A stretch of DNA of 43,845 nucleotides from Faecalibacterium sp. Lineage in GTDB: Bacteria; Bacillota; Clostridia; Oscillospirales; Ruminococcaceae. Every line of letters starts with the position of its first letter. Position 1 is the stretch's first letter. The notes under the pieces were generated by a model. That model was not told the DNA's origin, searched no databases, and was given only the letters and a program-made list of their open reading frames with translations. Below, in pieces: positions 21,067-39,312 of this stretch. A program made the position numbers and the translations under genes. The stretch covers positions 1 to 43,845 of the forward strand of contig JARHYC010000025.1 of NCBI GenBank assembly GCA_029264955.1, read 5' to 3'.

Positions 21067-21777
21067 TCAGCCTTCGTAGACCAGAGTGCCCACAGCTTCG
21101 CCCTGCACAGCGCGTGCAATGTTATCCGGATCAGCCAAGTCAAACACAAAGATGGGCAGCTGGTTGTCGCGGCACAGCGTTGCAGCCGTGCCGTCCATGA
21201 CGCCCAGCTGATCTTCCAGCACCTTGCTGAAGGTCAGGCTATCGTACTTTACTGCATCGGAGTACTTGTGGGGGTCCTTGTCATAGACACCATCCACCAT
21301 CGTTGCCTTGAACATAATCTCAGCATCGATTTCAATCGCACGCAGTGCGCTGGTTGTATCGGTGGAGAAGAAGGGGTTACCCGTACCGCCGCCAAACAGA
21401 ACAATCTTACCTGTCTTCATTGCCGCAATCGCTTCATCACGGCTGAAAGGCTGCGCCACCTGCGGCATAAACAGACTGGTCATAACTACAGCCTCCAGGC
21501 CCTGCTGGCGCAGTGCATCAGCAACAGCCAGGCAGTTCATTACTGTAGCCAACATGCCGATTTTGTCGGCCAGCGTACGCTCCATCTTCCCGCTGGAACG
21601 CCCGCGCCAGAAGTTTCCGCCGCCCACTACAATACCGATTTCGGCACCCAGATCATGCGCTTTCTTAATGCCTGTGCAGATGCTCTCCATCACAGCTTCG
21701 TCAAAGCCGGTACCTTTCTGACCGCCCAAGGCTTCGCCGCTTACTTTCAAAAGGACTCTATTATACCGCAATGCCAT
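21067..21777 (-). CDS. pyrH: UMP kinase PyrH
   Basis: Hexameric bacterial UMP kinase (amino-acid-kinase fold), phosphorylating UMP to UDP. Seen in the 236-residue product: RVLLKVSGEALGG, GIVVGGGNFWRGRS, DKIGMLATVMNCLAVADAL, and later FKATMVDGVYDKDPHKY and the C-terminal ARAVQGEAVGTLVYEG. Two in-frame ATGs are possible. The one at 21777 has GGTGG about 7 bp upstream and matches the family N-terminus (xxYxRVLLKxSGEAL); the one at 21792 has no spaced RBS. It is the first gene of the operon, behind a good promoter, and lacks the usual upstream rpsB-tsf. Confidence 0.95.
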   Translation of the reverse strand: MALRYNRVLLKVSGEALGGQKGTGFDEAVMESICTGIKKAHDLGAEIGIVVGGGNFWRGRSSGKMERTLADKIGMLATVMNCLAVADALRQQGLEAVVMTSLFMPQVAQPFSRDEAIAAMKTGKIVLFGGGTGNPFFSTDTTSALRAIEIDAEIMFKATMVDGVYDKDPHKYSDAVKYDSLTFSKVLEDQLGVMDGTAATLCRDNQLPIFVFDLADPDNIARAVQGEAVGTLVYEG

Positions 21778-21831
21778 ATCCTTATCCACCATCCTATCTT
21801 AATATTAAAACTTACGCTTATAACTCTCTAC

Positions 21832-21960: not shown

Positions 21961-22803
21961 TTATTTTGTCCAATACTCTTCCAACCCAGGTACACCACTC
22001 AGCTCTAAGCGGATGTATCCTATGCATTCCATCCGCCAGGCAACATCATCTCCACTTTCCGATCGGAACATTAACTTATTACTCAGTACCATATTGTCCA
22101 TAGGAATGTCTAATGTAACAGTTGTACCACTGCTGGTTGTTTTGACAACCGGTTTCCATTCCAGAAGTTCACACATCTCTCGACACAAATGCAGTCCAAT
22201 CCCTGCGCTATTCCAGGCAACTTCTTCCTCGAACATCGCAGTCCCACAGCATAGCGTGCGTGCTATCTGTCCAGTCATGCCACCGCAAAAATCTTGAATC
22301 AGTAACTGCGCACCATCCCTGCTTTTGCGTAGCCCCAAGATAACTTTTCCACCTGGTTTACTTGCCTGCAAAGCATTCGACAACAAATTCAAAATAATTT
22401 TCTCTGCCATTGCCGCATCCGTTATGACGCAGAACGGTTCTTTCGGCAGTTTGGTTTCGATTTGCACATTCGCTGCACGCTCAATCTGTGCACTTTCTTC
22501 TTGAATCAATTGCAACAAGGTACACAAATCCACTGGTTCCTGCCTTGGATATACCTGATCGTAGATGCAGGCATACAAATCCGCACAGTTTCGCCACATA
22601 CGCTCCATGCTTTTTTGCGCAAGTTCAATCCCTTCCAGCGACTGCTTGACCTTTTCGTCTGCATTTGGTTCATTACACCCTAAATGCGTCCAAAGATAGG
22701 ATTGATTCATTGCCAGCAAACTCAGCGGCCGTACCATTTCCTGTGAGATAGTATCTGCAATCATCCTGCTTAATATTTCTGATTTTTTAACTATTTCTCG
22801 CAT
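21961..22803 (-). CDS. Soluble histidine-kinase-like protein with degenerate DHp His
   Basis: A 280-residue cytoplasmic protein with no membrane or sensor domain. Residues ~8-75 resemble a DHp helical hairpin, but the place of the phospho-accepting His is a Gln in ISQEMVRPLSLL (normally SHELxxPL). Residues ~120-240 form a GHKL ATPase: N-box EKIILNLLSNALQAS, a D-x-C-G-G version of the G1 box (IQDFCGGM) and a G2 box GIGLHLCREM. ATP binding is thus plausible, His autophosphorylation at the usual place is not. A ~45-residue C-terminal extension follows. The ATG at 22803 overlaps the end of the regulator gene by 17 bp, with GGAG upstream, so they are coupled. Possible roles: phosphatase, phosphotransfer-independent regulator or scaffold. 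Confidence 0.75.
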   Translation of the reverse strand: MREIVKKSEILSRMIADTISQEMVRPLSLLAMNQSYLWTHLGCNEPNADEKVKQSLEGIELAQKSMERMWRNCADLYACIYDQVYPRQEPVDLCTLLQLIQEESAQIERAANVQIETKLPKEPFCVITDAAMAEKIILNLLSNALQASKPGGKVILGLRKSRDGAQLLIQDFCGGMTGQIARTLCCGTAMFEEEVAWNSAGIGLHLCREMCELLEWKPVVKTTSSGTTVTLDIPMDNMVLSNKLMFRSESGDDVAWRMECIGYIRLELSGVPGLEEYWTK

Positions 22804-23533
22804 AAACTGGCTCCTTCTGTTCTTCAGTTTGCGAGTATCTACTGCACACTTCCAATAATTTTTTCACGGTTGGACGTACGCCATCCAACCCATTTTCTTT
22901 TTTAAAACTCTGATACCCCGGAGTATTCTGCTTTTCCAGATGTGCAATAATGCGACGAAGACCACTGTCTACTGCCGATACCGAAACACAATGGTTTTCT
23001 GCCACCACAGATAACAATTCTTTGCGCAGCGCAAGTGGTTTATTTGCCTGTGCCAGTAGCGCAACCGCCTCTGCAAAATACTGTACTTGGGTCTGTTCCA
23101 ACTCAACGCCCCACTGCTTCAAAATCAATTTTTCCGGATTCGTCTGCTTCTCATCACAAAGCATTTTAATCCGCTGCGACAGGCTTTTCGGGTTCAGCGG
23201 CTTACATAAAAAGGAGTCTACCGCGCCAGGGATTCTACGTTGCATTCGAAAAAACCGCTGTGGCAATACCAAGACAATGACACTGGGGCGCTTCTGCAAC
23301 CGCAATGTCCGCAACCGCATCATCACCTCTGTTGCATCCATGTCCACCATGATTGTGTCCAATACAATGCAGTCATATGTGTCACCCCTGTCCAAATCCC
23401 GCAGTAAATTTTCTCCCTTTCGAAAGATGACACATTGCTCTGCTGTACCGGTTTCCAGCAGATAATCTGCCGTTGCCTGCATCAGGATGCTGTCCATTGA
23501 GCAAAGCGCGATTCTTTTCGGCTTTCCGTTCAT
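22787..23533 (-). CDS. Spo0A-like response regulator with atypical receiver
   Basis: A 248-residue protein. Residues ~6-130 are a receiver domain with phospho-acceptor Asp near 59 (DCIVLDTIMVDMD) and the conserved Lys in LCKPLN. The N-terminal acidic pair is reduced (LCSMDSI has one Asp), and the usual Thr/Ser before Ala is replaced in VLVLPQ. Residues ~140-235 resemble the Spo0A C-terminal DNA-binding domain: GVELEQTQVQYFAEAV, then VAENHCVSVSAVDSGLRRII, then RPTVKKLLEVC, matching the spacing of Spo0A's recognition helix region and its KPT segment. It is an operon partner of the DUF6514-like gene (11 bp upstream) and the kinase-like gene. It could be the organism's Spo0A or a diverged paralog; the weak acidic pocket favours a paralog. 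Confidence 0.75.
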   Translation of the reverse strand: MNGKPKRIALCSMDSILMQATADYLLETGTAEQCVIFRKGENLLRDLDRGDTYDCIVLDTIMVDMDATEVMMRLRTLRLQKRPSVIVLVLPQRFFRMQRRIPGAVDSFLCKPLNPKSLSQRIKMLCDEKQTNPEKLILKQWGVELEQTQVQYFAEAVALLAQANKPLALRKELLSVVAENHCVSVSAVDSGLRRIIAHLEKQNTPGYQSFKKENGLDGVRPTVKKLLEVCSRYSQTEEQKEPVYARNS

Positions 23534-23544
23534 GCTTATCTTCC

Positions 23545-23847
23545 TTATTTTCGAATTATTTGGTAGGGAACCAAATCCTCAGCAACATCTAGCCAGTTAT
23601 CCATCGGGATCGCGTTCTCATACAAAAACCGCAAAATATTGTATGCCATGATTCCCGTGCAATCCAGCTGTATTCCCTCTGACCTTCCCATCGTTTTTCC
23701 ATCGCTTTGTTCCAATCGGATTTCCCAGCAGTCGTCCACCAGATTCAGTTGATACCGAATCCAATGCGGCATCTGTAGCTTGCCCAACGCAGAAAACTTT
23801 CGAATATATTCGATTTGTATCCGCGGGGGTGCTGTCCGTTGTCTCAC
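23545..23847 (-). CDS. DUF6514-like small protein, copy 1
   Basis: A 100-residue soluble protein. Its C-terminal half has the family-like motif NILRFLYENAIPMDNWLDVAEDLVP, closely matched by the protein at 38869-39138 (LVRFLYENAVPMESWQDIVADAVP). The N-terminal EYIRKFSALGKLQ is likewise shared. The resemblance to the clostridial DUF6514 family is my recollection of that motif and not a search result; function unknown. The start is a GTG at 23847, placed 7 bp after GGAG; the ATG five bases upstream runs into TGA after two codons. It is the first gene of an operon with the Spo0A-like regulator and the kinase-like gene, so a link to that signalling system is likely. Confidence 0.7.
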   Translation of the reverse strand: MRQRTAPPRIQIEYIRKFSALGKLQMPHWIRYQLNLVDDCWEIRLEQSDGKTMGRSEGIQLDCTGIMAYNILRFLYENAIPMDNWLDVAEDLVPYQIIRK

Positions 23848-23878: not shown

Positions 23879-23932
23879 ATTTTATCGCCGTAGTCTGCAC
23901 GATGCAACAAATAAAATGCGTCAAAATGCGTC
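23879..23932 (-). promoter_or_regulatory. Promoter and tandem 10-bp repeats upstream of DUF6514-like copy 1
   Basis: On the minus strand: GTTGCAT (-35 region), 17 bp spacer, TAAAAT. Just upstream are two perfect head-to-tail copies of a 10-mer (plus-strand AAAATGCGTC at 23913-23922 and 23923-23932), one helical turn apart. The nearer one supplies a TTTTGAC element 11 bp before GTTGCAT. The same TTTTGAC-N11-GTTGCAT-N17-TARAAT arrangement occurs at the second DUF6514-like gene. Confidence 0.55.
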
Positions 23933-24012: not shown

Positions 24013-24088
24013 GGGCCTGTAGCTCAGCTGGGAGAGCGTACGGTTCGCATCCGTAAGGTCGAGAGTTCGATCCTCTTCAGGTCCACCA
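24013..24088 (+). tRNA. tRNA-Ala(CGC)
   Basis: A complete 76-nt cloverleaf with encoded CCA: acceptor GGGCCTG/CAGGTCC, D arm GCTC/GAGC, anticodon stem TACGG/CCGTA with loop TTCGCAT (anticodon CGC), T arm GAGAG/CTCTT with loop TTCGATC, discriminator A. The third acceptor pair is G3-U70, the identity element for alanyl-tRNA synthetase. It has its own promoter and terminator and stands alone. It reads GCG codons. Confidence 0.95.
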
Positions 24089-38868: not shown

Positions 38869-39138
38869 TTACATTATATTGGGTACTGCATCGGCTACTA
38901 TATCTTGCCAGCTTTCCATCGGAACCGCATTTTCGTATAAAAAACGAACCAGATGATGTGCTGCCTGTTCTGGACAACACAGTAATATCGCCTCTTTCCG
39001 TTGCGCTGTTTTCGTCCTCTTTTCCACTTCTAAACGCCATTCTCCGTTTTGCGGCCGGATGCGATATGTAAGCCGATACGCTGGCTGCAGCCCCTCTATT
39101 TCTGAAAATGTACGGATATACTCATTCTGTTCCTCCAT
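38869..39138 (-). CDS. DUF6514-like small protein, copy 2
   Basis: An 89-residue paralog of the protein at 23545-23847: shared EYIRxFS start, a middle beta region (RLTYRIRPQNGEWRLEVEK) and the strongly conserved end LVRFLYENAVPMESWQDIVADAVP. Function unknown. The ATG at 39138 is preferred, with AAAGGGG 11 bp upstream; the in-frame ATG at 39165 overlaps the predicted -10 element and so cannot be in the transcript. Single-gene unit with its own promoter and terminator. Confidence 0.7.
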   Translation of the reverse strand: MEEQNEYIRTFSEIEGLQPAYRLTYRIRPQNGEWRLEVEKRTKTAQRKEAILLCCPEQAAHHLVRFLYENAVPMESWQDIVADAVPNIM

Positions 39139-39163
39139 GCTTCCGACATCCCCTTTCGATTTC

Positions 39164-39211
39164 ATTCTACCGCTATATATCCGCGCATGCAACCGCAACT
39201 GTTTGTCAAAA
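39164..39211 (-). promoter_or_regulatory. Promoter of DUF6514-like copy 2 with Spo0A-box-like element
   Basis: On the minus strand TTTTGAC, 11 bp, GTTGCAT, 17 bp, TAGAAT: the same elements and spacings as upstream of copy 1. Read on the plus strand the distal element is TTTGTCAAAA (39202-39211), one mismatch from the Spo0A-box-like TTTGTCGAAA. A perfect TGTCGAA occurs at 39284-39290. Confidence 0.5.
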
Positions 39212-39312
39212 AGGGGCTGTATTCTCAGGGATTTTTCTCTCTCCGACTTTCTTTGTCCTGTTTTGTGTTTTCTCTCGCCAAAATGTCGAAATTTCCTGCC
39301 TGCTTTTATCAG

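Follow-up and report, generated by a model that had tools for sequence, protein, structure and literature searches.

The window, i.e., the whole 43,845-nt stretch of DNA that was analysed, contains three intact open reading frames on the minus strand, read from 23847 to 21961 in the order SML, REG and KIN. The first cassette gene, SML (23545..23847, minus strand), starts with GTG and encodes a small DUF6514-type protein of 100 aa with an FLYENA motif that is common to its relatives. It is followed by REG (22787..23533, minus strand; 248 aa), a pseudo-receiver with a Spo0A_C-type DNA-binding domain according to the domain matches and the receiver alignment, and by KIN (21961..22803, minus strand; 280 aa), a kinase homologue with a degenerate phospho-acceptor region (Gln for His) and an HATPase_c domain. 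SML and REG are 11 bp apart and REG and KIN overlap by 17 bp, in agreement with the earlier note, which was made from the sequence alone and had described the genes as overlapping or at most 11 bp apart. The neighbours, pyrH (UMP kinase) downstream (21067..21792, minus strand) and tRNA-Ala(CGC) upstream (24013..24088, plus strand), are treated as context outside the module.

Upstream of SML, the minus strand reads GACGCATTTTGACGCATTTTATTTG-TTGCAT-n17-TAAAAT. Repeat analysis recognized two copies of GACGCA as a tandem repeat: box 1, the upstream copy, at 23927..23932, and box 2, 10 bp from box 1, at 23917..23922. Box 2 starts 15 bp before the -35 element TTGCAT (23902..23907), which is separated by a 17-bp spacer from the -10 element TAAAAT (23879..23884). 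All four elements are on the minus strand. They go beyond what had been noted from the sequence alone, as does the range of intact to disabled copies given below.

The SML protein of the window had no Pfam match of its own. DUF6514 (PF20124) was matched at E up to 1 by three of the eight aligned SML members, the window protein not being among the three, and the profile match behind the earlier label of a DUF6514-like protein is seen in part of the family but not in the window copy itself. Solved structures searched with SML gave nothing of note (best E 0.34). A second SML paralogue lies elsewhere in the window (38869-39198, minus strand), adjoining an MTHFR gene and without REG or KIN, and a 0A-type box, TGTCGAA, was seen by eye upstream of it (39284-39290). 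Solo SML copies were also observed in four relatives of the window's genus, g1 (L118, L130, L133 and L139).

Distribution and position of the cassette

The SML profile search (E up to 1e-7) gave 49 loci in 44 of the 396 family genomes; the loci read comprised 47 from the profile search and the two in the window. SML, REG and KIN were found in that order on one strand at 43 of the 49 loci, so the arrangement in the window is more than chance, and the remaining six were solo SML genes. Co-occurrence of the three genes, which had been proposed as a check, is thereby confirmed within the family. The related suggestion that the small protein is a third component is upheld by this linkage, but two REG-KIN pairs lack SML.

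These two pairs, L141 and L142, came from the REG search and were added to the 43 full cassettes to form the kinase set (n = 45). In both, a tandem-box promoter lies directly before REG, and the SML gene was not found at the locus; the genome of L141 (G081) keeps a solo SML elsewhere, and that of L142 (G052) has a second full cassette. Two loci of genus g26, L010 and L012, were excluded from the 45 because loci were chosen by SML match. They consist of REG and KIN with no SML match, and the His is kept while the REG Asp is changed to Gly, which is the opposite loss combination. L126 has an in-frame TAG inside SML (around 615-821) in an otherwise His-bearing cassette, and was omitted from two alignments and from the KIN tail count given below.

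In an order-wide draw, 4 of 295 genomes matched SML. Three of them were of the window's genus, its own genome included, and at the fourth match (L152, another family) no REG or KIN was found within 1.5 kb. Among the carriers with a name are Anaerofilum, Gemmiger and a Faecalibacterium sp.

The pyrH gene lies downstream of 31 of the 45 cassettes, the window included, both His-bearing and His-less, and tRNA-Ala(CGC) is within the fetched stretch (about 3 kb) of 17/45. Five of the 14 cassettes without pyrH had less than 500 bp of downstream sequence; for the other nine (six in g1), at least 800 bp was available and pyrH was not found in it. Nor was pyrH found in the larger stretches around two g1 copies (20 kb) and the His-bearing L195 (17 kb). 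The window cassette keeps the common pyrH position, but its genus-mates do not. Orthology is therefore backed by position in the greater part of the set but not throughout.

Kinase homologue, regulator and selection

The window KIN matched HATPase_c (36.2 bits), and HisKA was not matched even at E up to 1. The alignment places Gln at the phospho-acceptor His position. The highest 19-residue hydropathy mean is 1.36, which makes a membrane segment unlikely. Both readings, Gln for the phospho-acceptor His and a protein with neither sensor nor membrane segment, had been made in the earlier note and are borne out.

The phospho-acceptor His is missing from 33 of the 45 KIN and present in 12, and 13 kinds of residues replace it (G, A, Q, E, S, C, N, K, T, Y, M, R and D). 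In g1, all seven KIN lack it and have Q, S, G, E, T, D and S instead. One of the four KIN in g9 has the His and three have Gln, and g19 has one KIN with His and others with C, K and Y. Among published HisKA domains, 0.9% lack the His (722 of 76,471; PMC12632262, section 6, as excerpted), and the contrast with 33/45 is somewhat inflated because the published sample was picked by HisKA matches, which favours intact sites. A simple mutation of the window copy, with a normal His in its orthologs, had been raised as the alternative and is ruled out by the 33/45 count.

In the REG+KIN tree, one well-supported group of 15 rows takes in every copy that has the His as well as the Asp (11), together with four His-less copies. 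L104 (g9), the twelfth with the His, is placed among Gln copies and is paired with a REG without the Asp. At least four changes of the His state are needed on this tree, a count that cannot separate gain from loss because the tree is unrooted. An N-terminal part of at least 144 aa before the H-box was present in 8/12 His-bearing versus 1/33 His-less KIN (reading frames taken from the first start codon), and a PAS fold was clear in L105 only, among 10 kinases scanned.

Within the 33 His-less KIN, 30 retain the second N-box Asn and 30 the G1 Asp; the last G2 Gly is present in all 33 and the first G1 Gly in 32, the window being the exception with Cys. The kept core columns of the ATP site rank among the least variable of 258 alignment columns, whereas the former His column exceeds 72% of them in variability. 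Selection has therefore preserved the central nucleotide-pocket residues, not the phospho-acceptor. Speaking against this are replacements at the first N-box Asn (10 copies), the first G2 Gly (17) and the F-box Phe (23), the Cys of the window copy, and the g110 copies, in which no G1 Asp can be aligned. The window KIN keeps both N-box Asn residues, the G1 Asp and the last G2 Gly, has Cys at the first G1 Gly and Ser at the first G2 Gly, and lacks the F-box Phe. The usable ATP site that had been claimed for it is plausible from the core residues kept family-wide, but the window copy is odd at G1 (Cys).

When 12 close pairs of relatives were compared, dN/dS (YN00, or NG86 where YN00 failed) ranged from 0.04 to 0.27 across the three genes; the pairs share members and are not independent. 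For KIN, it was 0.08-0.27 in the nine close pairs in which both members are His-less. Two distant g1 pairs gave KIN values of 0.56 and 0.71, which are untrustworthy because their synonymous distances are near 1. The best relative of the window copy has 30% identity, so dN/dS comes from relatives only. Low dN/dS and the kept ATP core together mean that the His-less copies are not pseudogenes; for the relatives, pseudogenes are ruled out by dN/dS itself. The window KIN thus counts as a pseudo-histidine kinase, a His-kinase homologue without the acceptor His, with preservation by selection as measured in its relatives.

Decay of a former two-component system, with these genes as its remnants, is extremely unlikely. 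The catalytic residues were lost in many combinations and the relative L126 has a stop within SML, as decay would have it, but the three window frames are intact, dN/dS is low in all three genes over the 12 close pairs, the ATP-site core belongs to the least variable columns, and the promoter architecture described below is conserved.

After the ATPase domain, the KIN C-terminal tail follows a basic-hydrophobic-Glu-hydrophobic pattern in 28/44 copies (3.9 expected from shuffles), whether or not the His is present. The pattern was written after the tails had been viewed, some of its matches are false, and the window KIN C-terminus (21961-22100) does not match it; the motif was set aside.

The window REG scored 32.3 bits with Response_reg (cut-off 30.2) and 21.8 bits with Spo0A_C, below the cut-off of 25. 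Spo0A_C was matched by 12 of the 13 aligned REG members, the window included (E up to 0.1; best 2e-19), and the Spo0A-type DNA-binding domain that had been proposed is accordingly supported across the family, with a sub-cut-off score in the window copy. The acidic pair of the window receiver is Met-Asp, i.e., one acidic residue is replaced, and Leu stands at the switch Thr/Ser position, just as the reduced acidic pocket and missing switch residue had been described; the Asp and the Lys are kept. With two of the five conserved receiver residues replaced, the active site is incomplete, and the window REG falls under the pseudo-receiver definition in the excerpted text of PMC12632262 (at least one of five residues missing). 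Across the cassettes, the REG Asp is kept in 34/45 and missing in 11/45; in the published set, 2.0% of receivers lack it (PMC12632262, as excerpted). Beside His-less KIN, the Asp is kept in 23/33 REG and missing in 10/33.

These counts bear on the reading that REG is still controlled by phosphorylation, through another kinase or acetyl phosphate, and that KIN serves as a dedicated phosphatase or pairs with a His-bearing kinase in a heterodimer. It is given weight by the Asp, which the window copy and 23 of the 33 comparable cassettes retain. The window REG likewise retains the Lys and one acidic residue. Nearby, the window also encodes a full-length PhoR/PnpS-like kinase whose H-box is intact, and HisKA phosphatase activity is not strictly His-dependent (PMC12632262, section 6, as excerpted). 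However, the Asp is missing from the other 10 REG, the window receiver is without one acidic residue and the switch Thr/Ser, and the g110 KIN copies, which have neither the His nor an alignable G1 Asp, still show a dN/dS of 0.10. This reading is considered rather unlikely, and for the phosphorylation independence of REG suggested earlier the evidence points both ways.

Tandem boxes and their probable reader

The promoter architecture was scored as a 10-bp direct repeat (at least 4/6 matches) with the second box 15 bp before TTG and a -10 element at the usual distance. It was found in 28 of the 45 upstream regions, and 17/45 missed the strict form; in the control of 200 dinucleotide shuffles, the mean was 0.4 and the maximum 3. 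The repeat signal peaked at lag 10 and -15, the highest among 697 combinations. The best control combination at other lags reached 13/45, and neighbouring offsets at lag 10 reached up to 28, as expected for a longer repeat. For at least two of the 28 matches, L102 and L138, the TTG used as anchor is doubtful, and L102 has a proper site as well. In L113 and L116, judged by eye, a similar pair seems to lie about one helical turn further upstream. None of the six solo SML genes had the architecture. The box letters centre on GACGAA, the core of TGnCGAA, and variants between lineages include GACGCA, GACGGA, TAGGAA, GAAGGA and GATGAT. At the abrB promoter, Spo0A binds tandem 0A boxes 10 bp apart.

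The earlier note had asked whether a separate canonical spo0A exists. It was found in the window genome at G000:C18 (TIGR02875 243.9 bits, cut-off 200; Spo0A_C 157.9 bits), which rules out REG as the sole Spo0A. Of the 44 SML-matching genomes, 40 have a Spo0A_C hit above 150 bits, the exceptions being G052 (66% complete), G205 (83%), G212 (97%) and G385, and SpoIIGA was present in all eight genomes tested, the window genome included. REG therefore adds to Spo0A and is no substitute for it, and the non-canonical branch of regulation proposed earlier is supported as a distinct branch beside canonical Spo0A.

Short Spo0A_C ORFs (about 115-185 aa), which have no room for a full receiver, were observed in G047, G202, G236, G247, G311, G329 and G385. 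Six of these seven genomes also have a full-length Spo0A, and one ORF in G329 is about 2 kb from spo0A.

The cassette might be a target of canonical Spo0A, with the tandem boxes being Spo0A sites that REG does not read. The common box keeps the G, C and G of TGnCGnA, which are Spo0A contact positions (G2, C4 and G5 of TGTCGAA; PMC3485338, as excerpted), and canonical Spo0A is present in those 40 of the 44 genomes. The boxes, however, differ by lineage, while the recognition helix of Spo0A is the same in 10/10 genomes. The Spo0A DNA-binding domains of these 10 genomes have a median identity of 90% (73-100%); for the REG DNA-binding domains the median is 21% (11-89%). Box distance tracks the REG DNA-binding domain, with a partial r of 0.32 when the receiver is removed (0/2000 permutations) and 0.24 when KIN is removed (p 0.0035), and not the receiver when the DNA-binding domain is removed (-0.07, p 0.79). 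The covariation set consisted of 31/45 promoters, selected partly by eye: 11 without a clear repeat were left out, as were L122, L135 and L138, for which the automatic anchor was judged wrong, and for L102 and L112 the boxes were placed by eye. Furthermore, G212, 97% complete, shows no canonical Spo0A, yet its locus L136 has a repeat of the cassette-promoter architecture. The cassette is thus very unlikely to be a mere Spo0A target.

Since the boxes covary with the DNA-binding domain of REG and not with its receiver, REG is singled out, and the covariation points to REG controlling its own promoter (autoregulation). Binding of REG to the boxes, the sign of the regulation and any further targets are inferred from sequence here.

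The tandem GACGCA pair occurs without mismatch once in its own genome, at the cassette promoter. The box-plus-TTG pattern was searched with up to 2 mismatches in seven g1 genomes and gave 34 places versus 38 for the reversed-pattern control, and a wide regulon with the window box was not found. Five of the 34 places were cassette promoters (G000, G171, G236, G287 and G329). Missing from the 34 were those of G081 and G367, and one 1-mismatch place in G081 lies away from any cassette. No convincing native Spo0A boxes were found before spoIIGA at eight loci (L189 and L191 were read on the wrong ORF).

Proposed mechanism and known systems

The preferred reading, given a probability of roughly 0.62, is an autoregulated three-protein cassette in which the pseudo-kinase KIN and SML would adjust REG by contact. 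The cassette would descend from a soluble His kinase and a Spo0A-type response regulator, accompanied by a DUF6514 protein. KIN would have lost autophosphorylation of the H-box His in most lineages, including that of the window, and have been kept as a probable nucleotide-binding partner. REG would be placed as a tandem dimer on the two 0A-like boxes beside the -35 element of its own promoter. As KIN is without a phospho-acceptor, the input must reach REG another way: direct contact with KIN and SML would replace His-to-Asp phosphotransfer, and ATP or ADP bound to KIN would be the likely input. Both the formation of such a complex and the sensing of nucleotides are predictions of this scheme.

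A wider version is possible, though doubtful. A Spo0A-type system at the pyrH locus would have been converted, in several lineages separately, to a phosphotransfer-free, self-controlling switch, in which the former kinase reads ATP/ADP and signals by contact, and the DUF6514 protein is an adaptor or antagonist. Fast co-evolution of the operator and the DNA-binding domain would then have led to genus-specific, insulated boxes, and the main direct target would be the cassette's own operon.

How pseudo-receivers are switched on and off was called a mystery in a 2025 review (PMC12632262, as excerpted). The cassette offers intact, half-disabled and fully disabled pairs in related genera, largely at one syntenic locus and with a mappable promoter. 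It lets one ask what replaces phosphate once two-component chemistry is lost, and by what route a regulator that coexists with Spo0A comes to be insulated from it. The DUF6514 family also gains its first testable context.

The SML family resembles DUF6514 (PF20124) in that members match the profile (the 3/8 given above) and differs in its neighbourhood: among 30 DUF6514 loci read with 1.5-kb flanks, a REG-like ORF was near one only (L050, opposite strand), and no KIN-like ORF was found. The literature search found no paper that mentions DUF6514 and none on a Spo0A-like response regulator in Clostridia. REG is similar to Spo0A (TIGR02875; PF00072 and PF08769) in its domain order, Spo0A_C-type domain and the TGnCGAA-like box core before the promoter. 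It differs in scoring 37.3 bits with TIGR02875 against the cut-off of 200, its recognition helix and receiver are altered relative to Spo0A, and a true Spo0A coexists with it.

With pseudo-histidine kinases such as DivL and RocA, KIN shares the homology to kinases and a proposed action on a signalling partner without ordinary phosphotransfer. It differs from them in sharing an operon with its regulator and a DUF6514 protein, in lacking any sensor or membrane part, and in a His that varies within one positional orthologue. The atypical response regulators ChxR and HP1043, again as excerpted, resemble REG in having a receiver without conserved residues and a DNA-binding output; they are of the OmpR/PhoB type and HP1043 is called an orphan, whereas REG is of the Spo0A type and has a degenerate kinase partner. 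From a canonical two-component system, the window pair differs in that KIN is without the acceptor His and the REG receiver is incomplete. Pseudo-histidine kinases and pseudo-receivers are already known kinds; what is new, to our knowledge, is a Spo0A-derived operon in which both partners have lost chemistry, located for the most part at a single syntenic locus and paired with an operator that evolves along with it.
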